Source: Slackia heliotrinireducens DSM 20476 (GTDB taxonomy: Bacteria; Actinomycetota; Coriobacteriia; Coriobacteriales; Eggerthellaceae). Taken from it: a stretch of 64,000 bases of DNA. Numbering within the stretch: position 1 is the first letter of the stretch; each line of letters opens with the position of its first letter. Shown here piece by piece: positions 8,175-18,413 of this stretch. Both the position numbers and the translations under genes were made by a program. A model generated the notes under the pieces. That model did no database searches. It was not told the origin of the DNA and saw only the letters and a list, made by a program, of their open reading frames with translations. The stretch is taken from contig NC_013165.1 of the NCBI RefSeq assembly GCF_000023885.1, positions 558,001-622,000 of the forward strand, written 5' to 3'.

Positions 8175-9104
8175 ATGACCATCTACACATCCGTCGACCA
8201 GCTGATCGGACACACCCCTCTGCTCGAGCTTACGGGCATCGAGAAGGCGTACAGGCTGAACGCCCGCATCGTCGCCAAGCTGGAATGCATGAACCCTGCG
8301 GGTTCGGTGAAGGACCGCATCGCGAAGGCCATGATCGACCAGGCCGAGGCGGACGGTCGCCTGCAGCCGGGCGGCACCATTATCGAGCCCACTTCCGGCA
8401 ATACCGGCGTCGGTCTGGCTTCGATGGCTGCTGCCCGCGGGTATCGCCTGATCATCACCATGCCCGAAACCATGTCCGTCGAACGTCGCCTGCTCATGAA
8501 GGCATACGGTGCCGAGCTTGTTCTGACCGACGGGTCCAAGGGCATGACCGGAGCCATCGCACGCGCGAACGAAATCAGCGCCGCCACGCCGAACAGCATC
8601 GTGGCCGGGCAGTTCGTCAACCCCGCCAACCCTGCCATCCATTTCGCGACCACCGGTCCGGAGATTTGGGAAGACACCGAAGGCAATGTGGACATCTTCG
8701 TCGCCGGCGTCGGAACGGGCGGCACGCTGACGGGCGTGGGCAAGTACCTGAAGTCGCAAAAGCCCGACGTGAAGGTTGTCGCCGTGGAACCTGCCAGCTC
8801 CCCGGTCCTTTCCACGGGCAAGGCAGGAGCCCACAAGATTCAGGGCATCGGAGCCGGATTCATCCCCGACGTGCTGGACACCAACGTGTATGATGAAGTA
8901 ATCACCGTGGAAAACGAAGCGGCCTTCGAAGTGGGTCGGGCCATCGGTCGCACCGATGGCATGCTGGCGGGCATCTCTTCGGGAGCCGCCACATGGGCCG
9001 CCATCGAACTGGCCAAGCGCCCCGAGAATGAAGGCAAGACCATCGTGGTGATGCTGCCCGACAACGGCGAGCGCTACCTGTCCACGGCTTTGTTTGCGGA
9101 ATAG
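8175..9104 (+). CDS. cysK: Cysteine synthase A (O-acetylserine sulfhydrylase)
   Basis: 309 residues. The PLP-binding Lys lies in [15 protein letters not shown], the substrate loop is [11 protein letters not shown], and the phosphate-binding loop is [12 protein letters not shown]. It makes cysteine from O-acetylserine and sulfide in the cytoplasm. CGGAGGA precedes the ATG. It heads a probable operon with a C26 amidotransferase (24-bp gap) and mnmA (40-bp gap), so cysteine supply and tRNA thiolation may be co-expressed. The Rrf2-type operator upstream suggests repression when sulfur is sufficient. CysK is also a known partner of CymR. Confidence 0.96.
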
Positions 9105-9128
9105 GACGACAGTTAGCAGGTTGGTTTA

Positions 9129-9968
9129 ATGGGCGAAGTTCATGATCGTCCGATTATAGGCATCGTTCCGACGCAGGATTTGGCTGCAGGACGCATCGAA
9201 ATCCGCGACGAGTATCTGGATGCAATCGTCATGGCCGGCGGCACGCCTCTGGTGTTGCCGCTGACCGAGGACACCGGCGTATACGAAACGCTGTTTCCGC
9301 TGGTGGACGGGTTTGTTCTCAGCGGCGGGCACGACATCGACCCCGCTCGCTACGGCGGCGACGCCTCAAACGACAAGCTGGGCGAGCTCACCCCCATGCG
9401 CGATGCGGTGGAATACCTGGTGCTGAGCTACGCCTATAAATACGACGTGCCAACGCTGGGCATCTGCCGCGGCATGCAGATGATGAACGTGTTCTTCGGC
9501 GGTACGCTCTACATAGATCTTGCCGATCAGTTCGACGGGCCCCAAGGCATTACCCAGGACATGCTGAAGCACCAGCAGACCATCGATTACAGCGAACCGT
9601 CCCATTTTGTCGACATCGTCCAGTCATCCAAGTTGGGAAACCTGCTGCAAACCGGTCGTATCACAACAAACTCCATGCACCACCAGGGCGTTTGCGTTTT
9701 GGCGCCGCTGCTGAACCCCGTCGCGTTCGGTCCTGACGGGCTGGTGGAAGCCATCGAGGTGAAAGATCGTTCCTTCATGATGGGCGTGCAGTGGCATCCG
9801 GAGTTCTTCGCCGGCGCCAAAAAGATGGGCTGCATTTTCGCGTCGTTGGTGGACGAGGCGGGTCTGAGCGCCATCCGCCAGCAAAACGGTCGCAAGCCGC
9901 TGCCCATCGTACCGCCGGAGGCCCGCGCGGGCGCATGGCCTGAAGTCGGACGCAGGTCCGAAGGCTAG
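9129..9968 (+). CDS. Class I glutamine amidotransferase-like hydrolase (peptidase C26)
   Basis: 279 residues. A gamma-glutamyl-gamma-aminobutyrate hydrolase (PuuD)-type fold: substrate loop LVDGFVLSGGHDIDPARYG, nucleophile Cys in LGICRGMQMMN, and catalytic His-Glu in VQWHPEF. Relatives cleave gamma-glutamyl bonds. With cysK upstream and gshA in the window, a role in gamma-glutamyl-thiol turnover is plausible but inferred. It lies 24 bp after cysK and 40 bp before mnmA. Confidence 0.85.
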   Translation: MGEVHDRPIIGIVPTQDLAAGRIEIRDEYLDAIVMAGGTPLVLPLTEDTGVYETLFPLVDGFVLSGGHDIDPARYGGDASNDKLGELTPMRDAVEYLVLSYAYKYDVPTLGICRGMQMMNVFFGGTLYIDLADQFDGPQGITQDMLKHQQTIDYSEPSHFVDIVQSSKLGNLLQTGRITTNSMHHQGVCVLAPLLNPVAFGPDGLVEAIEVKDRSFMMGVQWHPEFFAGAKKMGCIFASLVDEAGLSAIRQQNGRKPLPIVPPEARAGAWPEVGRRSEG

Positions 9969-10008
9969 CCGCACCGCATTCGACACATCAAGAAACCGAG
10001 GTTGCAAC

Positions 10009-11070
10009 ATGGTACAACGAGTTCTGGTCGGCATGAGCGGCGGCGTGGATTCCAGCGTGACGGCATACCTGCTGCTGCGTCAGGGCTACGAGGTCGTCGG
10101 CGCCACCATGAATCTGTACGACCCTGGGCGCCTCGGCGTGCCCGATGTTCGCGACGGCGAATCAAACGATCTTGAAGATGCCCGCAGCGTGGCGAATCGG
10201 CTGGGCATAGCGCATCATGTTCTCGATTTCGGGTGCGAATTCGAGAACAACGTGGTCCGCCCCTTCGCCCAGGCCTACGCGGACGGCCTGACGCCCAACC
10301 CGTGCATCGCATGCAACCGTCATCTGAAGTTCGGCCTCATGCTGAAAGCCGCCCGCGAGTTGGGCTGCGACGGCATCGCGACAGGACATTACGCGCGCAT
10401 TGCTCAGCGTCTGGACGGCCGATTTGTCCTGATGAAAGGGCTGGATGACGCGAAAGACCAGGCCTACGTCCTTTACCACATGACCCAAGACCAGCTTGCC
10501 CATACGGTTCTGCCTCTGGGCGAATACACCAAGCAGCAGGTGCGAGCCATCGCGGCTGAGCAGGGGTTCGCCAATGCCCGAAAGCACGAGAGCCAGGACA
10601 TCTGCTTCGTGCCGGACGGCGACTATGTTGGTTTTCTCGAACGTTACGCGGGGCTTGTTCCCGAACCTGGCGATGTGCTGGATGAAAACGGTGCGGTGCT
10701 CGGGCAGCATAGGGGCGCCATCCGCTACACGCTGGGCCAGCGCAAGGGCATCGGCATCGCGTCGACACAGGCGCTGTACGTAACCGCTAAAGACATGGCG
10801 GCAAACACCATTACCATGGGGCCTGCCGACGCTTTGCTGGCGGACGGCTGCACGGTGGGGAATTGGAATTGGATTCTACCTGATGAGGGGCCGGTTCATG
10901 CCATGGTGAAAACCCATTACCGGCAAAAGCCCCACGGCGCCATGGTCGTGCCGCAGGAAGACGGCACGGTGAGGTTCGACTTCGACGAGCCGTCGCGGCT
11001 GGCGGCGCCGGGGCAATCTGCCGTCGCCTACATCGGCGATACTGTGCTCGGCGGCGGCATCGTCCTGTAG
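10009..11070 (+). CDS. mnmA: tRNA-specific 2-thiouridylase MnmA
   Basis: 353 residues, full length. The PP-loop ATP site is VGMSGGVDSSVTAYLL. The catalytic Cys pair lies in NPCIACNRHLKFG and SQDICFVPDG. ATGHYAR and the C-terminal beta-barrel (YTLGQRKGIGI) are present. It inserts sulfur at C2 of wobble U34 in Glu, Gln and Lys tRNAs, using persulfide sulfur from a cysteine desulfurase not seen in this window. It is the last gene of the cysK cluster. An IS3-type element begins 25 bp after its stop. Confidence 0.96.
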   Translation: MVQRVLVGMSGGVDSSVTAYLLLRQGYEVVGATMNLYDPGRLGVPDVRDGESNDLEDARSVANRLGIAHHVLDFGCEFENNVVRPFAQAYADGLTPNPCIACNRHLKFGLMLKAARELGCDGIATGHYARIAQRLDGRFVLMKGLDDAKDQAYVLYHMTQDQLAHTVLPLGEYTKQQVRAIAAEQGFANARKHESQDICFVPDGDYVGFLERYAGLVPEPGDVLDENGAVLGQHRGAIRYTLGQRKGIGIASTQALYVTAKDMAANTITMGPADALLADGCTVGNWNWILPDEGPVHAMVKTHYRQKPHGAMVVPQEDGTVRFDFDEPSRLAAPGQSAVAYIGDTVLGGGIVL

Positions 11071-11094
11071 CGCGCAACGAACGGCCCGAAGCAC

Positions 11095-12545
11095 TGAACT
11101 GCACCCCAGTTCTTGGACGGGCAAATAAAGCGGTTCATGCCGCACGTAGGGACTGATTCCGGAATTCCTCCGGGGTCAGTCCCTTCAGTTTAACCTGACG
11201 CCTCCTCGTGTTCCAGTGGACGATGTATGCATCTAGGTCGCGCCTGAACTCTTCGAAGCTTGGCCATGTCTGGTTCCGGAAGAATTCGTCTTTCAGATGG
11301 CCGAACACCTGCTCCGTCGCGCCGTTGTCGATGCAGTTGCCTTTCCTGGACATGCTCTGCACGACGCCCGCCTCTTTCAGCCTGTTGCACCATCCAGCCT
11401 GCTGGTATTGCCAGCCCATATCGGAATGCAAGATCGGCGCGGAACCCTCCGGCATCTTGGAAAGCAGCTGGTCGAGCAGCTCAATTTGCTGGGCCATGTT
11501 GGGGTGCAGCGACGTCGGCCAGGCGACGATTACCTTGCTGCCGAAGTCGTAGACCGGGGCGAAGCAGGCCTTGCCCCAGGGCTGCTTGAACTCTGTGACG
11601 TCGGTGCCCATCTTCTCCCACGGCCCGTCGGCTGCGAAGTCGCGGCCGATGACGTTCTCGAAGGTCTTGCCGACTGCGCCCCTGTACGAGTTGTACCTGT
11701 GGTGGTCGGTCCCGCGGCGGATCCCGCAGCTGATCCCCATCTCGCGCATCATCTTGAGCACGGTCTTGTCGGCTATGCGCACGCCCTGCTCGGCGCGCAG
11801 GCACATGGCGATCTGCCTGTGGCCGCAGCCGTTGGCGGTGCGCGAGAATATCTCGGCGGCGGCCTCCCAGAGCTCCGGCCTGGTCGGGGCCTTCGGGTGC
11901 GACAGCGCGTAGTAATAGCTCGACCTGGCAAGATCGGCGCATTCCAGCAGGTCGGCGAGGGGGTATCGCCCCGAAAGCTCGCTCACGGCCGCTGCCTTCT
12001 CGCTGTTCGAGAGCGCCTCTCCGCCTTCAGGGCCATCGATTTTTTTTAGGTAGGCGTTCTCCGCCTCGGGCTTCTGTACCCGGCGTTCAAGCTCCTGCTC
12101 GCGCGTTGGTTTCTTGGGCGGGGAGGCGGATCCCTTTGGCCTTCCCTTCGGCTTGGGCCTTAGCGCCTCGGGGCCGCCTTCCCGGTATGCCTTCATCCAG
12201 TTCTTCAGCGGGGTCATCGAGGCGATTCCGAACTTCGCCATGGCTTCCGCCTTGGGCATGCCCTCGTCAACGACCGCCCGTGCCGCCGCCACCTTGGTCT
12301 CAAACGAATACCTGTTGTACTTGTGCCCCATGACCATCAGCCCCTCGATGCCAACGGATCTGTAAGTGTCGATCCATTGTCTCACGGCAGCGTAAGGAAC
12401 ATGGATTAAATCAGCAATGGAGCGGACGCCGTAACCCTCGTCGTAGAGTTCAGCAGCTCTCGACCTTGTGACAGCGTCGTACAAAGTTCTACGGGTCATA
12501 CAAAAGCCTCCCTTCTCTCATGTCCAAGAAAAGGGAGGCAGTTAA
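11095..12545 (-). mobile_element. IS3 family insertion sequence
   Basis: A 1451-bp element with imperfect 24-bp terminal inverted repeats (11095-11118 and 12522-12545, 19 of 24 matching, both containing AACTGC and TTCTTGGAC). No clear short target duplication is visible at the outer edges. It encodes one long transposase on the minus strand and separates mnmA from metY. The minus-strand coding direction is the same as metY. Confidence 0.85.
11135..12499 (-). CDS. IS3 family transposase, OrfA and OrfB in one frame
   Basis: 454 residues. The N-terminal OrfA part has two helix-turn-helix units (GVRSIADLIHVPYAAVRQW and KAEAMAKFGIASMTPLKNW) and a leucine-zipper-like ELERRVQKPEAENAYLKK. The OrfB part has the DDE core: GTDVTEFK, ILHSDMGWQYQ and GATEQVFGHLKDEFF. 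IS3 elements normally make the fusion by -1 frameshifting on an A-rich run. Here an A8 run (12040-12047, minus strand) sits exactly at the junction, but the frame continues straight through, and the other two frames stop within about 20 codons. AGGGAGG precedes the ATG. Confidence 0.9.
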   Translation of the reverse strand: MTRRTLYDAVTRSRAAELYDEGYGVRSIADLIHVPYAAVRQWIDTYRSVGIEGLMVMGHKYNRYSFETKVAAARAVVDEGMPKAEAMAKFGIASMTPLKNWMKAYREGGPEALRPKPKGRPKGSASPPKKPTREQELERRVQKPEAENAYLKKIDGPEGGEALSNSEKAAAVSELSGRYPLADLLECADLARSSYYYALSHPKAPTRPELWEAAAEIFSRTANGCGHRQIAMCLRAEQGVRIADKTVLKMMREMGISCGIRRGTDHHRYNSYRGAVGKTFENVIGRDFAADGPWEKMGTDVTEFKQPWGKACFAPVYDFGSKVIVAWPTSLHPNMAQQIELLDQLLSKMPEGSAPILHSDMGWQYQQAGWCNRLKEAGVVQSMSRKGNCIDNGATEQVFGHLKDEFFRNQTWPSFEEFRRDLDAYIVHWNTRRRQVKLKGLTPEEFRNQSLRAA

Positions 12546-12610
12546 GGGGAGGGTGCTTCGGGCCGTTCTTCATTTGGTGGCGTTCGGCGCGCAGCAGTGT
12601 TGGACCGCGG

Positions 12611-13903
12611 CTATTGCGCTACGGCTGCAAACGCCTGATCGAGGTCGTACAGGATGTCGTCGATATGTTCGGTGCCGATGGACAGGCGGATGGTGTTGGG
12701 CAGAATTCCCTGGTCAATCAGCTCTTCGGGGGTCAGTTCCGAATGGGTGGTGGTTGCCGGGTGTATGACCAGGCTCTTCACGTCGGCTACGTTCGCCAGC
12801 AGCGAGAACAGCTGCAGATGGTCGATGAACGCATGGGCCTCCTGCACGCCGCCTTTGATGTTGAAGGTGAAGATGGAGCCTCCGCCGTTGGGGAAATACC
12901 GCTGGTACAGGTCGTGGTCCGGGTGGTCGGGCAGCGACGGATGGTTCACTTTCTCCACCTGCGGATGGGCGACCAGGTATTCCACAACCTTCTTGGTGTT
13001 TTCCGCATGTCGGTCGAGCCGCAGCGACAGGGTCTCGGTGCCTTGGAGCAGCAGAAACGCGTTGAACGGCGATATCGCGGCGCCCGTGTCGCGAAGCAGG
13101 ATGGCCCGGACGTACGTGGCGAAGGCGGCCTTGCCGGCGGCGTCTGAGAACGAGATGCCGTGGTAGCTGTCATTCGCCTGCGTGAACTGGGGGAACTTGC
13201 CGCTTGCATTCCAGTCGAAGGTGCCTGCGTCCACAATGACGCCGCCCAGCGTGGTGCCGTGGCCTCCAATGAACTTGGTGGCCGAGTGCACGACGATGTC
13301 GGCGCCGTGCTCGATGGGGCGGATGAGGTACGGCGTGCCGAAGGTGTTGTCGATGGCCAGGGGAACGCCGTGCCTGTGGGCGATGTGCGCGATGGCGTCG
13401 ATGTCGGGGATGTCGGAATTGGGGTTGCCCAAGGTCTCGATGAAGATGACCCGGGTGTTGTCCTGGATGGCGTCTTCGACGGCCTGAAGGTCCTGGGTGT
13501 CGACAAAGGTGGTTTCGACCCCGAAAGGACGCAGCGTATGCTGGAGCAGGTTGTAGGTTCCGCCGTAAATCGTCTTTTGGGCCACGACATGCCCGCCGGC
13601 CTGGGCCAACGCCAGAATGGTGTAGGTGATGGCGGCTGCACCCGAGGCCAGGGCGAGCCCTGCCACGCCGCCTTCAAGCGCGGCGATGCGATCTTCGAAC
13701 ACGCTCTGTGTGGTGTTGGTCAGTCGTCCGTAGATGTTTCCGGCATCGCGCAGGCCGAATCGGTCGGCTGCATGGGCGGAGTTGTGGAACACGTAGGACG
13801 TAGTCTGGTAGATAGGCACGGCACGGGCATCGGTTGCCGGATCGGCCTGCTCCTGACCCACGTGGAGCTGCAGGGTTTCGAACTTGTACTGATGATTGGA
13901 CAT
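12611..13903 (-). CDS. metY: O-acetylhomoserine sulfhydrylase (MetY-type)
   Basis: 430 residues from the ATG at 13903 (SNHQYKFETLQLHVGQEQ). The longer frame to 13960 has no ribosome site. This is a Cys/Met metabolism PLP enzyme: the PLP Lys lies in HSATKFIGGHG, with ETLGNPNSDIPDI and TTHSELTPEEL also conserved. The length and insertions are those of O-acetylhomoserine sulfhydrylases, which make homocysteine or methionine precursors from O-acetylhomoserine and sulfide. Upstream are a Met/Cys-rich leader peptide, a long-range stem and an Rrf2-type operator over the promoter, so two layers of sulfur control are likely. Confidence 0.93.
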   Translation of the reverse strand: MSNHQYKFETLQLHVGQEQADPATDARAVPIYQTTSYVFHNSAHAADRFGLRDAGNIYGRLTNTTQSVFEDRIAALEGGVAGLALASGAAAITYTILALAQAGGHVVAQKTIYGGTYNLLQHTLRPFGVETTFVDTQDLQAVEDAIQDNTRVIFIETLGNPNSDIPDIDAIAHIAHRHGVPLAIDNTFGTPYLIRPIEHGADIVVHSATKFIGGHGTTLGGVIVDAGTFDWNASGKFPQFTQANDSYHGISFSDAAGKAAFATYVRAILLRDTGAAISPFNAFLLLQGTETLSLRLDRHAENTKKVVEYLVAHPQVEKVNHPSLPDHPDHDLYQRYFPNGGGSIFTFNIKGGVQEAHAFIDHLQLFSLLANVADVKSLVIHPATTTHSELTPEELIDQGILPNTIRLSIGTEHIDDILYDLDQAFAAVAQ

Positions 13904-13940
13904 GGTGATCACTCTTTCTGAACGCGGAATCAATGGGATG

Positions 13941-14028
13941 AAAAGGGGCCTCCCGGGCAAGGCATGCGTTCCAGAGTGGTTGTCGCAGTTAGAAACGGTG
14001 GAGCGACGGCATGCGGAATGCCCGGGAG
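13941..14028 (-). promoter_or_regulatory. Attenuator-like stem between leader peptide and metY
   Basis: In the metY leader RNA, CTCCCGGGCA (14028-14019, leader codons 19-22) pairs perfectly with TGCCCGGGAG (13959-13950). The stem can extend by GCATGC pairing with GCATGC across an internal loop. It is followed by GCCCCTTTT, a short U-run. A ribosome paused at leader codons 17-19 (Met-Met-Cys) would cover the first arm. The layout fits transcription or translation attenuation. The U-tract is short, so the exact mechanism is unclear. Confidence 0.55.
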
Positions 14029-14084
14029 CACATCATTCGCCCGGCCATCATGCAGCGCATCTGAGTGTTGAACCCGCGAGCCAT
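13989..14084 (-). CDS. Methionine/cysteine-rich leader peptide of metY
   Basis: A 31-codon ORF on the minus strand with an excellent ribosome site, AAAGGAGG at 14090-14097, 5 nt before the ATG at 14084. It ends with TAA about 85 nt before metY. Nine of 31 residues contain sulfur: Met at 1, 9, 12, 13, 17, 18 and 25, and Cys at 11 and 19, including RCMMAG and RMMCSR. The enrichment, the strong ribosome site, the position in the leader of a methionine-pathway gene and the overlap with the attenuator-like stem all point to a sensing peptide that stalls ribosomes when charged Met- or Cys-tRNA is scarce. Function is inferred; the ORF is seen directly. Confidence 0.72.
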   Translation of the reverse strand: MARGFNTQMRCMMAGRMMCSRAFRMPSLHRF

Positions 14085-14123
14085 CGCTTCCTCCTTTCCA
14101 AATTCGTTGTTTGCGATGGATGC

Positions 14124-14159
14124 ATTTTAAAACCCTATTTACCCACCTGTCAAGTAGGT
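14124..14159 (-). promoter_or_regulatory. metY promoter overlapped by Rrf2-type operator
   Basis: On the minus strand a perfect TTGACA (14148-14153) and TAAAAT (14124-14129) are 18 bp apart. The -35 box lies inside ACCTACTTGACAGGTGGG (14142-14159), the third copy of the operator found before the CymR-like gene and cysK. Binding there would block RNA polymerase. The transcript would start about 30-35 nt before the leader peptide. Confidence 0.72.
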
Positions 14160-14338
14160 ATTTTGAAAAACTTCAAGATGTGGAAGCCCGGACACATAAT
14201 GCATACACATCGCAGGGTTGGGGGTTCCTTTCGTTCGGGTTGCCCGGATTCAAACATGTGCGCAGTCACGGTTCACGAACGTAGTAGAATGAGCGGGTGC
14301 GCAAAGGGAGCACGTACCATCCAAGTGAAAGGCCAGCC

Positions 14339-14872
14339 ATGACTACTTTCGATTACGAAAGCCTCATCGTCAGCATTCCCGATTATCCCGAGCCGGGCGT
14401 CGTTTTTAAGGACATCACGCCGCTGCTCGCCGACCCCGAGGGCTTCAACGCCGTTATCGACGGCATTGCCGAACACTTCGCCGGCAAGGGCATCACCAAG
14501 GTCGTGGGCGCCGAGGCCCGCGGTTTCATGATCGGCGCGCCGGTGGCGGCCCGTATGGGCGCCGGCTTCGTTCCTGCTCGCAAGCCCGGCAAGCTGCCTC
14601 GCGAAACCGTGTCCGAAAGCTACGCGTTGGAATACGGCACCGACTCTCTGGAGATTCATGCCGACGCCCTGTCCCCCGAGGACAAGGTTCTGATGGTGGA
14701 CGACCTTATCGCCACGGGCGGTACTGCGGCTGCCCAGGTCAAACTGATCGAGTGCGTCGGCGCCGAACTGGTGGGCATGGGCTTCCTCATGTCGCTGGAT
14801 TTCCTCGAGCCTGAAAAGGTGGTCGGGGCTGTGACCGACGTGGAGATGTTCTCGCTGGTGCACGTCAAATAG
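14339..14872 (+). CDS. apt: Adenine phosphoribosyltransferase
   Basis: 177 residues from the ATG at 14339 ([20 protein letters not shown]). The frame is open to 14297 but GAAAGG fits the later ATG. The PRPP-binding motif is [17 protein letters not shown], with [10 protein letters not shown] and the flexible-loop [13 protein letters not shown] typical of Apt. It converts adenine and PRPP to AMP in purine salvage. It diverges from the metY transcription unit and is followed by a terminator-like hairpin. Confidence 0.95.
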
Positions 14873-14895
14873 GCTGCGCAACACATACATGTGAT

Positions 14896-14926
14896 GCGGC
14901 GGAGGCAAAGGCTTCTGCCGCTTTTG
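14896..14926 (+). terminator. Terminator after apt
   Basis: GCGGCGGAGGC and GCTTCTGCCGC form a GC-rich stem with some G-U pairs around a 4-nt loop, followed by TTTTG. It lies between convergent genes. Confidence 0.65.
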
Positions 14927-14991
14927 TATTATGGAACGGTGCGCGGCCTGGCTGCGCGGATTCTTCCCGATTCGGGACGTGGGAAGGCGAC

Positions 14992-15423
14992 TTATGCTTT
15001 ATGCCTGGTGGCGGCCAGCATCCAGAAGAACGCCGCTGCCATAAGGACGAGCCCTGCGCCGTCGAACACGATGAACCGCAAGATGCTCGAAGCCAGCAGA
15101 TCGTGGCCGGCGGGCAGGGTTGAAAGGATCCAGGATTCGCCGACCAGTCCGACCAACTGCTGGGCAAGCACGATCCAGCCCACCGTGCGGAATCGGTCGG
15201 GGTTGAAGATGACCAGGGGATACGTAACGTTCCACATGGCGAAGGCGATGCCGATGCCGCGGACGGCCACATCGCCCGGCACCCCCGACAGCTCATAGGC
15301 GCCCGTGTAGCCGCCGGGCCACAGCACGAACTGCACCACGCACATCATGTTGATGACGAACACCGTCAAAAAGGCAAGGCGCGCCGCCCACACCGCCGCG
15401 CCGGCTTTTCCGGAACGGGCCAT
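14992..15423 (-). CDS. Small integral membrane protein of unknown function
   Basis: 143 residues with four probable membrane segments: AAVWAARLAFLTVFVINMMC, GIGIAFAMWNVTYPLVIF, TVGWIVLAQQLVGLVG and the region GLVLMAAAFFWMLA. The layout resembles small conserved membrane proteins with a signature near NPDRFR, but no named family is recognised. GGAGG lies well placed upstream of the ATG. It is transcribed divergently from the SRAP gene, 75 bp away. Confidence 0.75.
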   Translation of the reverse strand: MARSGKAGAAVWAARLAFLTVFVINMMCVVQFVLWPGGYTGAYELSGVPGDVAVRGIGIAFAMWNVTYPLVIFNPDRFRTVGWIVLAQQLVGLVGESWILSTLPAGHDLLASSILRFIVFDGAGLVLMAAAFFWMLAATRHKA

Positions 15424-15498
15424 CTCGTTGCCTCCTGTTCACCTTGGAATACCGAAAGTATGATAGCCTAAACCGCAGCGAATTCGAAAGGGGAGGCC

Positions 15499-16161
15499 AT
15501 GTGCGGACGCTTCGCCGTGCTGACATACGATGAGGTCATGGACGTTGTCCGCAGCGTCGAGGCCCGATTGCCCCTCAATCCCATGGCCGAATGGCCGGCC
15601 ACGCGTCCCGTGGCGGCGCCCATGTCGGTGGCCCCTGTTGTGACGCCCGTCGGCGGGCAGCTGCAGATACAGGATTTGACCTGGGGGTTCTCTGTAGATT
15701 GGCGCAATGGCCCCGTGTTCAACACGCGGCTCGATTCCGCCTTGTCGGGCAAGGGCATGTGGCGGGACGCCATGCGCGAGGGCAGGTGCATCGTGCCCGT
15801 GGCTGCGTTTTACGAACCTCACGCCACCGAAACGGTGTCGAGCCCTCGGACGGGCAAGCCCGTCAAGCGGCAGTACCTGTTCGGGACGGGCGACAGCACG
15901 CCGCTGCTGTTGGCAGGCGTGCAGCGCGACGGCCGCTTCTCCATCGTGACCACCGATCCCAACCAGGCGGTTTTGCCGGTGCATGACCGCATGCCGCTGG
16001 TCCTGAGCGTACCCGAAGTGGACGCATGGCTTGCAGGGGACGCCGCGCCGCTTGCGGATCGCTCCGCATTCGACCTGGTCGCACGCGCGGTTGACCCCAA
16101 GCTCGGAGCACCGCGCCAGCCGAAACCCGCCGCCGACAGCGGCCAGATGACCTTGTTCTAA
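15499..16161 (+). CDS. SRAP domain protein (HMCES/YedK-like abasic-site shield)
   Basis: 220 residues beginning Met-Cys-Gly-Arg. After Met removal, Cys2 is the residue that forms a covalent crosslink with abasic sites in single-stranded DNA. Other conserved parts are FNTRLDSA, RCIVPVAAFYEP (catalytic Glu) and PVHDRMPLVL (His). The protein ends in SGQMTLF, which fits the bacterial sliding-clamp-binding motif QxxLF at the extreme C-terminus. GGGGAGG precedes the ATG. It lies 33 bp before larE. Confidence 0.92.
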   Translation: MCGRFAVLTYDEVMDVVRSVEARLPLNPMAEWPATRPVAAPMSVAPVVTPVGGQLQIQDLTWGFSVDWRNGPVFNTRLDSALSGKGMWRDAMREGRCIVPVAAFYEPHATETVSSPRTGKPVKRQYLFGTGDSTPLLLAGVQRDGRFSIVTTDPNQAVLPVHDRMPLVLSVPEVDAWLAGDAAPLADRSAFDLVARAVDPKLGAPRQPKPAADSGQMTLF

Positions 16162-16194
16162 CCGACGCCTTACATATATAGAAGGAAGATGCCT

Positions 16195-17013
16195 ATGGCT
16201 TCCAAAGAGCTCCAAGCGAAATACGAGATCCTGAAAACCGAGCTGCGCCGGATGGGTTCGGTGGCCGTGGCGTTTTCGGGGGGCGTCGATTCGACGCTGC
16301 TCACGAAGGTCGCCCACGACGTGTTGGGCGATGCAGCCGTCGCCGTGACGGCGCACCCCTGCGTCATGCCGGACCGTGAGCTTGACGAGGCCAAGGCCTT
16401 TTGCGCCGGCGAAGGCATCCGCCAGGTGGTCGTCGAAACCGATGTGTTCGCCATCGAAGGGTTCGCCCAGAATCCGCCCGACCGTTGCTACCTATGCAAG
16501 AAGGCTCTGTTCAATCAGATTATGGATGCGGCCGCCGCTGCCGGTGCGGTGCACGTGGTCGAGGGCTCCAACATGGACGACTTGGGGGACTACCGTCCCG
16601 GTATGCGGGCCTTGGAGGAAATGGGTGTCGAAAGCCCGTTGCGTACGGCGGAGCTCACCAAGGCAGAAATCCGCGAACTCTCTCGTGAGCTGGGGCTTCC
16701 TACGTGGAGCAAGCCGTCGTTCGCTTGTTTGGCCTCGCGATTCGTGTACGGGGAGGAAATCACCCGGGAGAAGCTTGATCGGGTGGGCGCCGCGGAACAG
16801 TTCGTCATGGACCAGGGGTTCGCCCAAGTTCGCGTCAGGATGCATGGCGACATGGCCCGCATCGAGGTGCCCGAACAGGACGTGGCGCGCATCGCCGCAG
16901 AGCCGCTACGCGCGCGCATCGCCGAACGTCTTCGCGGGCTCGGGTTCTCCTATGTGACGCTTGACTTGGCAGGATACCGTACCGGCAGCATGAACGAGAC
17001 GCTGCGGCCGTAA
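16195..17013 (+). CDS. larE: LarE-type ATP-dependent sacrificial sulfur transferase
   Basis: 272 residues from the ATG at 16195. An ATG at 16189 sits only 2 nt from GAAGGA and is less likely. The PP-loop is VAVAFSGGVDSTLLTKVA. PDRCYLCKKALF and KPSFACLASRF match LarE, the last containing the Cys that donates its sulfur in single-use LarE proteins. The family builds the nickel-pincer cofactor of lactate racemase and related enzymes with LarB and LarC. Neither partner is in this window. It lies just downstream of the SRAP gene and may be cotranscribed with it. Confidence 0.88.
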   Translation: MASKELQAKYEILKTELRRMGSVAVAFSGGVDSTLLTKVAHDVLGDAAVAVTAHPCVMPDRELDEAKAFCAGEGIRQVVVETDVFAIEGFAQNPPDRCYLCKKALFNQIMDAAAAAGAVHVVEGSNMDDLGDYRPGMRALEEMGVESPLRTAELTKAEIRELSRELGLPTWSKPSFACLASRFVYGEEITREKLDRVGAAEQFVMDQGFAQVRVRMHGDMARIEVPEQDVARIAAEPLRARIAERLRGLGFSYVTLDLAGYRTGSMNETLRP

Positions 17014-17207
17014 GTCGTGCCGTATCCGCCAGGCGGACGTTTCCAAATAAGGGGCTTCGATGCGGAAACGCAGATTGCGTTGCGTAACGCAAGGCCAACG
17101 GTTCTGTGGCATCGGGTATATGTGCAGTATAGTGGCGGTATGCAGAAGTATTGCGACGCATCGGCGGGGCCGGACCTTCCCGATGCAGCGTGAGAAAGGT
17201 AACCACT

Positions 17208-18413
17208 ATGAACGTCAGTTTCTTCTCCATGGCCTGGCAGGACGTGAAAAGCTCGCCGCGTTGGTTCGCCACAGCGCTGAAACTTGCCCTTGTGCAGATG
17301 ATCCCCGTGTTCGGATCCATGGTGTCCGAAGGCTATATCTACGGTTGGGCGCGCGAGGCTGCCTGGAACATCCATAAGCCCATGCCCACAGCCGTCTTCC
17401 ATAACGAAGACGGCACGCTGTACAAGCGCGGCGCCTTCATCTGGGTGTACGCCCTGGTATTGGGTCTCATCACCGTGGTTTTGTCCGAACTGGGCAGCGT
17501 AATCATGGGGTCGGGGGACAACGCGGCGCTTGCCGCCATCGGGCTTCTGATTTCCCTGGCCACCTTCGCCCTGGGTATTTTCCTACAGCTGTTCGTATGG
17601 ACCGGCAGCATGCGCATCGCCCTGTACAACACCCTGGGCTCCGGCTTCCAGCTGAACCGCCTGTGGAACATGATCAAGCGTGAAAGCAGCGGCATCATCC
17701 GCATTCTTATCACGTACTTCCTGGTATCTTTGGCCGTCGGTTTCATCATGGGCATTCTGCTGATGCCGATTGTCATCGGCGTGATCGCAGCCGGAGTCGG
17801 CAGCGTAGACGTGCTGGCGACTGCGGACGAATTCGCCATCTTCGGCACCATCCTGGGTGCCGGCGCCATGGCAACCATCCTGCTGATCGTCTGGGCGTTC
17901 GTGCTTATGGTCGCCACGGTCATCCTCGAGCTGGTTTCGGTTCGCGCCATCGGTTATTGGACCAGCCAGTTCGACGTGGCCATGTGGGGTGCCGAGCGGG
18001 CGCCGATGCCGTTCGAGACCGGCGCTCCTTTGGGGCAGACGTATTCCGCGGCGTATCAGCAGTACCAGCAGCCGGTGCAGACCTACCAGCAGCCAACCGC
18101 CCAGCCGTCGTACCAGACGCCCATGGCGCAGCAGAATCCGCAGGCCCAGCCTGTGCAGCAGCAGTATCAGGCGCCGGTGGCGCAGCCTCAGGTTGTCGAA
18201 CAGCCCGCGGCGGATCAGCCCTACCATCCTGCGCCCGCCGAACCGCCTGTGCAGCCGCTGGAGCCTGTGGCCCAGCAGGCCGTCCAGTCTCTGGATGGAG
18301 CCGCCGATCCGGTTCAGCCTGCAGCACCTGAAGCTCCTGCTCCCGCCGAGCCCGCTCAGCCTGCAGCGCCTGAGCAGCCCGCCGACGCGGCCGACGACGC
18401 AGATCAGAGGTAG
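17208..18413 (+). CDS. DUF4013-like membrane protein with Gln/Pro-rich tail
   Basis: 401 residues from the ATG at 17208 after AGAAAGG. The first 265 residues hold several membrane segments (WVYALVLGLITVVLSELG, LAAIGLLISLATFALGIFL, LVSLAVGFIMGILLMPIVIG, TILLIVWAFVLMVATVILEL), matching the DUF4013 pattern. The last 130 are low-complexity and rich in Gln, Pro and Ala (YQQYQQPVQTYQQ and PAAPE repeats), probably disordered. Function unknown. It ends 3 nt before the next gene, so the two are translationally close. Confidence 0.82.
   Translation: MNVSFFSMAWQDVKSSPRWFATALKLALVQMIPVFGSMVSEGYIYGWAREAAWNIHKPMPTAVFHNEDGTLYKRGAFIWVYALVLGLITVVLSELGSVIMGSGDNAALAAIGLLISLATFALGIFLQLFVWTGSMRIALYNTLGSGFQLNRLWNMIKRESSGIIRILITYFLVSLAVGFIMGILLMPIVIGVIAAGVGSVDVLATADEFAIFGTILGAGAMATILLIVWAFVLMVATVILELVSVRAIGYWTSQFDVAMWGAERAPMPFETGAPLGQTYSAAYQQYQQPVQTYQQPTAQPSYQTPMAQQNPQAQPVQQQYQAPVAQPQVVEQPAADQPYHPAPAEPPVQPLEPVAQQAVQSLDGAADPVQPAAPEAPAPAEPAQPAAPEQPADAADDADQR

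Follow-up and report, generated by a model that had tools for sequence, protein, structure and literature searches.

A candidate ribosome-mediated attenuator upstream of metY in Slackia heliotrinireducens and related leaders in Coriobacteriia, Clostridia and Anaerovibrio

Introduction

Does the short Met- and Cys-rich open reading frame (ORF) that lies ahead of metY in Slackia heliotrinireducens DSM 20476, and overlaps one arm of an inverted repeat, tie expression of the gene to the supply of sulfur amino acids? Control of sulfur metabolism in Clostridia, Anaerovibrio and Coriobacteriia is generally attributed to SAM riboswitches, T-boxes and DNA-binding repressors. The trp, his, leu and thr attenuators combine a short translated leader, control codons, an antiterminator opposed to an intrinsic terminator, and a downstream gene of the same pathway. 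The original prediction for this locus, made from its sequence, was attenuation of this kind, with the stem as the attenuator and a ribosome stalled on three late codons of the ORF as the agent that breaks it. Here, the leader was compared with those of related and more distant genomes.

Results

The metY leader

The window, meaning the whole 64-kb stretch of DNA analysed, carries metY at 12611–13903 on the minus strand, as do all leader features below. The product is of the O-acetylhomoserine sulfhydrylase type, and a Cys_Met_Meta_PP match (PF01053, 1.9e-137) confirmed the gene assignment. The leader ORF (MARGFNTQMRCMMAGRMMCSRAFRMPSLHRF, containing CMMAGRMMCSRA; 13989–14084) has 31 codons, follows the Shine–Dalgarno sequence AAAGGAGG (14090–14097) and has homologues in the leaders of relatives. 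Seven Met (start included) and two Cys account for the nine such residues first reported. Among the 25 ORFs of 20–60 codons in the window that are led by a Shine–Dalgarno sequence, it is the richest in Met and Cys beyond the start codon (fraction 0.27, the next being 0.14). About 40 nt 5′ of the ORF is a sigma-70-like putative promoter, TTGACA-18-TAAAAT (14124–14153), which agrees with the consensus at 11 of 12 positions.

Codons 19–22 form the 5′ arm, CTCCCGGGCA (14019–14028), of a 10-bp stem without mismatch, and the 3′ arm is TGCCCGGGAG (13950–13959). The perfect stem was borne out by the sequence, as were its extension by an inner helix, P2 (GCATGC at 14009–14014 with GCATGC at 13962–13967), and the run that follows it, CCCCTTTT. 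P2 occupies the same topological place as ATGGC:GCCAT in Clostridia. A CGA-AUG core (Arg16-Met17, 14034–14039), also found in relatives, precedes the 5′ arm, and Cys11-Met12-Met13 (14046–14054) are, from the position of the corresponding codons in relatives, the likely sensor codons of the window.

The -35 region is held in a palindrome-like sequence, ACCTA..TTGAC..TAGGT (14141–14159), that was also seen by eye at the metY promoters of loci L069, L071 and L076. It is a candidate operator, and is present in L076, whose metY is without a leader. An IS3-like transposase ORF (11135–12499, minus strand), accompanied by a strong terminator hairpin (12539–12506), is found between an mnmA-like ORF and metY. 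The cysK-like and mnmA-like ORFs (8175–11070, plus strand) make this a sulfur gene neighbourhood; these three ORFs were assigned by eye.

Leaders of metY in the same family

When the MetY protein was used to search 138 genomes of the same bacterial family, 29 contained an orthologue at E<=1e-150. Reading the 29 upstream regions gave 14 leaders, one relic (L067, with CGAATG retained and the arm gone), 13 regions without a leader, a count that speaks against the mechanism proposed below, and one (L079) without upstream DNA. The metY of L080 has no leader. A similarity search of 138 genomes with the leader DNA matched the genome of origin alone.

The 14 coriobacterial leaders share CGA-AUG (CGA-CUG in L069), 5 nt and then CUC[CU][CU]G, in frame in a short ORF. 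Alignment of these Eggerthellaceae metY leaders spoke for the predicted stem. Both arms pair in all of them (110 of 110 cells, representing 11 distinct arm pairs from the 14 protein-selected leaders), and changes on both sides were seen at five of the ten pairs (5, 7, 8, 9 and 10). With the arms re-dealt among leaders the mean was 100.5 and the maximum 108, and none of 2000 deals reached 110; the 3′ arm was picked for best complementarity over a 130-nt range, a choice that favours pairing. The gap from CTCCCG to CGGGAG was 22–104 nt (ten leaders). The expected conservation of leader Met/Cys codons was found in part, with Cys no more than three codons before CGA in 12 of the 14, the exceptions being the window itself and G004. 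In one genome (G102), the same leader stands before an MFS-transporter-like gene assigned by eye (L043) as well as before metY.

Leaders in other bacteria

The core CGA-AUG-N5-CUCCCG occurs in short ORFs of Clostridia, Anaerovibrio and Coriobacteriia, where the genes that follow are metY, metA, those for C-S lyases and those for ABC transporters of Met and amino acids. The exact pattern gave at least 118 stretches over the named genome collection, 80 of them readable. A filter for an ORF of <70 aa with a start codon and a T-run of 4 within ~45 nt of the arm retained 63 of the 80 loci, and two of the 17 that failed it (L140 and L146) also precede metY. Among the matches listed, the 63 leaders belong by title to Coriobacteriia (6), Anaerovibrio (3) and Clostridia or unspecified Bacillota (54), many of them Lachnospiraceae. 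Again among the matches listed, 54 of the 63 have Cys no more than three codons before CGA, the 5′ arm is inside the ORF, 31–67 nt before the stop, and the median distance from leader stop to 3′ arm is 29 nt. In the more frequent form, runs of Cys immediately precede CGA, and the peptide is otherwise little conserved upstream.

Among the same listed matches, the downstream gene was metY in 35 (counted as such at >=75% identity to the MetY of the window) and another gene in 24, and four had no gene in the locus. Profiles (Pfam/NCBIfam, with several NCBIfam matches below that library's cut-offs) were scanned for 15 of the 24. They assigned SBP_bac_3-NlpA fusions (L112, L118), MetQ/NlpA (L128), SBP_bac_3 proteins (L158, L159), amino-acid ABC permeases with cystine permease among the near-equal matches (L147, L161), an ABC ATPase nearest MetN (L177), another ABC ATPase as third gene (L179), homoserine O-succinyltransferase (metA; L180), a PatB C-S lyase (L153), a Cys/Met PLP enzyme (L178) and a YeiH-type protein (L152). 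Some are not plainly sulfur genes, namely Fe-ADH (L122, and by eye L182) and GST_C proteins (L117, and by eye L174).

Alignment A1 combined 12 coriobacterial leaders with 51 references, taken from a prepared set of 62 after removal of apparent near-duplicates. Helix 1 was 97.6% paired in the 63 aligned leaders (among the matches listed), with its first seven pairs partly fixed by the search patterns, and pairing of the whole structure was lower when it was slid. The covariance model R1 was built from alignment A2, comprising 36 of 48 non-coriobacterial rows (Clostridia and Anaerovibrio) picked for complete tails. Its best match in the 64-kb window was the leader (13941–14051, 22.1 bits, E 0.0025), and the second was the same near-palindromic place on the other strand. 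In the whole 3.17-Mb genome the leader was the only match at E<=1 (E 0.12). R1 recognized the metY leader of G010 at 1.5e-14 and those of G002, G004 and G005 weakly (E 0.023, 0.29 and 0.0056, respectively). With stricter filters, a model search of 137 genomes at E<=0.01 found 11 and missed the window's own genome. In a sample of 199 Bacillota genomes the model found only its seed genome, so the leader family is patchy.

A chance origin of the leader and stem was also considered, and is ruled out by conservation, covariation and the covariance-model match. Because the stem is conserved with compensatory changes and a model free of Coriobacteriia scores this site highest, the arrangement in the window is, on sequence grounds, not fortuitous.

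A stem-only pattern lacking CGAATG matched 13 of 250 Lachnospiraceae genomes; its reversed control matched none. In 12 of these 13 stem-selected leaders CGAATG is exactly 11 nt before the arm, and in the 13th it is further upstream. All 13 have Cys no more than three codons before CGA in a short ORF, and in all 13 the Arg codon of the core is CGA and no other. When 30 Lachnospiraceae metY loci were picked by protein score, nine matched the model, three had a second form (see below) and 18 had neither. A stem-terminator pattern without CGAATG matched 17 of 395 genomes of the order, including five with known leaders (G042, G046, G102, G115 and G123, all of the window's family). The reversed control matched more often, so this pattern is uninformative for the rest of the order.

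Rfam, with its T-box, SAM riboswitch and other families, gave no matches (window 10000–18000 at E<=5, 10 loci at the gathering score and five loci at E<=0.5). None of six leader peptides matched NCBIfam at E<=1, and in Pfam one of the six had two matches, both below the curated cut-off, with none above.

Terminators and the polarity of the switch

A U-tailed terminator, built from the 3′ arm and sequence further downstream, is visible in ten of the 14 coriobacterial metY leaders (G010, which is of the same genus as the window, L062, L063, L066, L101, L069, L070 and L071-L073), with an interrupted T-run in L101 (G114). In G010, the 3′ arm forms part of another, T-run-bearing hairpin, CCGGGAGtcCTGTTGCAGgCTCCCGGTTTTTT, which makes a textbook terminator. 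As the 10-bp stem competes with the terminator for the 3′ arm in relatives, it is read here as an antiterminator and not as the attenuator it was first taken for. Nor is the stall site put forward at Met17-Met18-Cys19 supported: a ribosome halted there would mask the 5′ arm and thereby promote termination, the opposite of what induction by starvation requires. The conserved Cys codons sit just upstream of CGA-AUG, where a stalled ribosome would leave the arm free. What stands of the original prediction is the look of a leader attenuator for sulfur amino acids, conserved and covarying in relatives; its polarity and stall site find no support.

The overlap of terminator and antiterminator, clear in those ten leaders, is weak in the window, where the alternative hairpin GCCTT..GAGGC followed by CCCCTTTT (13941–13963, -6.6 kcal/mol folded alone) may be a degenerate terminator. 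No clear U-tailed terminator was found in the window, G002, G004 or G005 leaders, which are four of the five from the genus Slackia. Judged by its sequence, the window leader is a derived Slackia form with stem and core intact, terminator weak and Cys codons displaced. For the 63 leaders of the pattern search a T-run was a selection rule, and the presence of terminators there is no test.

Folds of L050 and L032 gave the long stem with the 5′ arm present and a terminator from the 3′ arm region alone. Folded from just past a ribosome stalled at Cys11, the window leader gave the long stem (-39.6 kcal/mol), and with the 5′ arm removed it gave the P2 helix or the weak GCCTT/GAGGC hairpin. The whole window leader folded alone had a minimum of -74.4 kcal/mol, compared with -69.1 with the long stem forced; in the minimum-energy fold, ~5 kcal/mol better, the 5′ arm pairs with a candidate protector strand just upstream (14038–14047). 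Among the matches listed, the arms are joined in the minimum-energy fold in 44 of 63 leaders, and the long stem is likewise not the minimum in the other 19.

Proposed mechanism

With its ORF, its covarying stem, the overlapping terminators of its relatives and its sulfur-gene context, the leader probably works as a transcription attenuator mediated by the ribosome, and the family to which it belongs appears to be undescribed. In this scheme, RNA polymerase would make a leader coding for a short peptide. If Cys-tRNA, and probably also Met-tRNA, were scarce, the ribosome would stall at the Cys/Met codons just upstream of CGA-AUG, with its leading edge ending about where the 5′ arm CUCCCGGGCA starts. 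The free CUCCCGGGCA arm could then pair with the downstream UGCCCGGGAG to form the antiterminator, with the inner helices, keeping the 3′ arm from the terminator so that metY would be transcribed. If charged tRNA were plentiful, the ribosome would run over the 5′ arm, the 3′ arm would fold with the sequence beyond it and transcription would stop. This non-starved state must rest on timing, as a finished ribosome at the stop codon would cover neither arm.

The leading edge of a ribosome lies ~15 nt past the first base of the P-site. When the A site holds the last Cys codon, this edge would stop 1–2 bases short of the 5′ arm, a geometry that would account for the 11-nt spacer. A ribosome at Met17, Met18 or Cys19 would sit on the 5′ arm in part or in full, and the fitting stall codons in the window are likely Cys11, Met12 and Met13. 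Cys seems best placed to be the sensed amino acid, and Met is abundant. In an untranslated window leader, the 5′ arm would be hidden in a local hairpin with codons 13–16 that a stalled ribosome would open; one stalled at Cys11-Met13 would cover most of 14038–14047, as with a classical protector hairpin. Given the weak intrinsic terminator of the window, the end step may be Rho-dependent or incomplete.

A sub-case of the attenuator, not exclusive of the reading above, is that the Slackia leader acts through metY translation or Rho termination. This seems possible, if rather less probable than not. The U-tailed terminator is weak or absent in four of the five Slackia-genus leaders, and the cys leaders of other Actinobacteria are also terminator-less in the part of the literature that describes them (PMC1262725), but G010, from the same genus, retains its textbook terminator.

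The CGA-AUG core and a conserved peptide

A candidate '1:2' helix between CGAAUG and downstream CRUUCG was assessed by duplex energy. In 48 non-coriobacterial leaders the mean z was -1.27 (se 0.27), and 22 of the 48 reached -8 kcal/mol or better, against 2 to 7 of 48 (z 0.02 to 0.37) in four controls. At the same place in 15 coriobacterial leaders it was unsupported (z 0.08), and further on in these leaders the signal was weaker (z -0.64, 4/14). A fixed-column pair count showed no excess (52.3 vs 52.5% in shuffles), and covariation is hardly testable because one side is nearly invariant. A CGAAUG:CRUUCG helix in about half of the clostridial leaders is plausible. In the window fold the protector (14038–14047) differs from this helix.

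One sub-class of leaders encodes LLRxNFRxGRM. Of 14 rows, 13 were counted (the misframed L163 was left out, and L148 and L184 are near-duplicates): Arg is at -7 in 12 (CGC, CGG, CGA or AGA), Arg at -3 in 13 (all four CGN codons) and Asn at -5 in 13. Two of the 13 (L297 and L298) came from a pattern in which Arg -3, Gly and CGAATG were preset, and three more such leaders were reached through metY alone. This conservation of the peptide with varied codons hints at a nascent-chain role in that sub-class.

A second leader class, LLRxN[FYC]RFGRMC, was seen at Lachnospiraceae metY loci (L297, L298, L299, L301 and L302). Five of seven matches to a pattern for it were ~60–120 nt before metY, with Cys not clustered in all, and no U-tailed hairpin was found in three that were folded. 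At L291, metY is preceded by a Met/Cys-rich leader of another type (MMMCCMDGMMCM...), which has a strong terminator and lacks the CUCCCG arm.

A more speculative reading, to which we give only a modest chance, is that ribosomes pause at CGA-AUG in a programmed way. Together with the CGA codon and a GUCGAAUGC:RGGYRUUYGRY helix, the nascent chain (CRM or LLRxNFRFGRM) might turn the ribosome into the detector of a sulfur metabolite. Class I would couple this to a terminator, whereas class II would lack one and lie near the start of metY, and the device would operate in both Bacillota and Actinomycetota. That arrest by a nascent ..GRM/..CRM peptide on a sulfur metabolite is the main event, with tRNA charging secondary, is unlikely. 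Synonymous variation in the LLRxNFRxGRM sub-class favours it, but the commoner leaders have Cys runs before CGA with little else conserved upstream, and the window peptide has only GRM-x-x-SR in common.

Discussion

The attenuator reading places the 10-bp stem as antiterminator. There is very little likelihood that the stem is itself the terminator, broken by a ribosome stalled at Met17-Met18-Cys19. In the window no mismatch interrupts it and GCCCCUUUU comes next, but ten of 14 coriobacterial leaders have their U-tailed terminator further 3′, with another partner for the 3′ arm. No U-run comes right after the stem in G002, G004 and G005, and the 22–104 nt between the arms (ten leaders) is long for an intrinsic terminator loop. 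Least probable of all is an RNA element (riboswitch or protein site) that overlaps the ORF incidentally: CGAAUG is fixed at the nucleotide level (CGA in 13/13), but the core is in frame in a short ORF in 14 protein-selected and 13 stem-selected leaders, the Cys codons are mostly at a fixed place, the arm gap varies in length and Rfam gave no match.

The metY leaders resemble the trp, his, leu and thr attenuators in having a leader ORF, control codons, competing hairpins and a downstream gene of the same pathway. They are unlike them in concerning sulfur amino acids, in the fixed CGA-AUG core beside the control codons and in the arm lying inside the ORF (31–67 nt before the stop in the 63 leaders among the matches listed). 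Mycobacterial polycysteine leaderless sORFs reportedly mediate Cys-responsive attenuation (Canestrari, 2020); they are similar in using a short ORF, but are said to be leaderless and polycysteine, without the CGAAUG/CUCCCGGGCA architecture. Candidate cys leader peptides of Mycobacterium, Propionibacterium and Bifidobacterium also have runs of Cys codons in a leader ORF before sulfur genes. They are set apart by their description, as far as the relevant part of that source goes, which places the Cys runs near the stop codon and reports no conserved terminator hairpin (PMC1262725). The His leader peptides of Firmicutes, upstream of hisS paralogues and hisZ, share leader-peptide attenuation in Gram-positive bacteria and differ, in the portion of the account concerned, in responding to His and not to sulfur amino acids (PMC2965389). 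As of 2013, the amino-acid attenuators in Rfam were those for His, Leu, Thr and Trp, according to the section that lists them (PMC3766115).

We found no description of a CGA-AUG/CUCCCG leader family in a search of mainly open-access papers. The novelty originally supposed for Coriobacteriia holds to that extent, but the leader is not special to them and recurs in Clostridia and Anaerovibrio. As the sampled leaders match nothing in Rfam or NCBIfam and nothing above the Pfam cut-offs, the targets of the switch have probably escaped annotation. Whether it senses tRNA charging or the nascent chain is the question posed by the fixed CGA-AUG core and by the sub-class whose peptide is conserved. Many gut and rumen Clostridia, as well as relatives of S. 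heliotrinireducens, carry the candidate switch, which seems not to have been described before. Clostridia, Anaerovibrio and Coriobacteriia thereby gain a sequence-defined and testable candidate for a switch that would respond to the supply of Cys and Met, placed before metY, metA and genes for Met and amino-acid transport.
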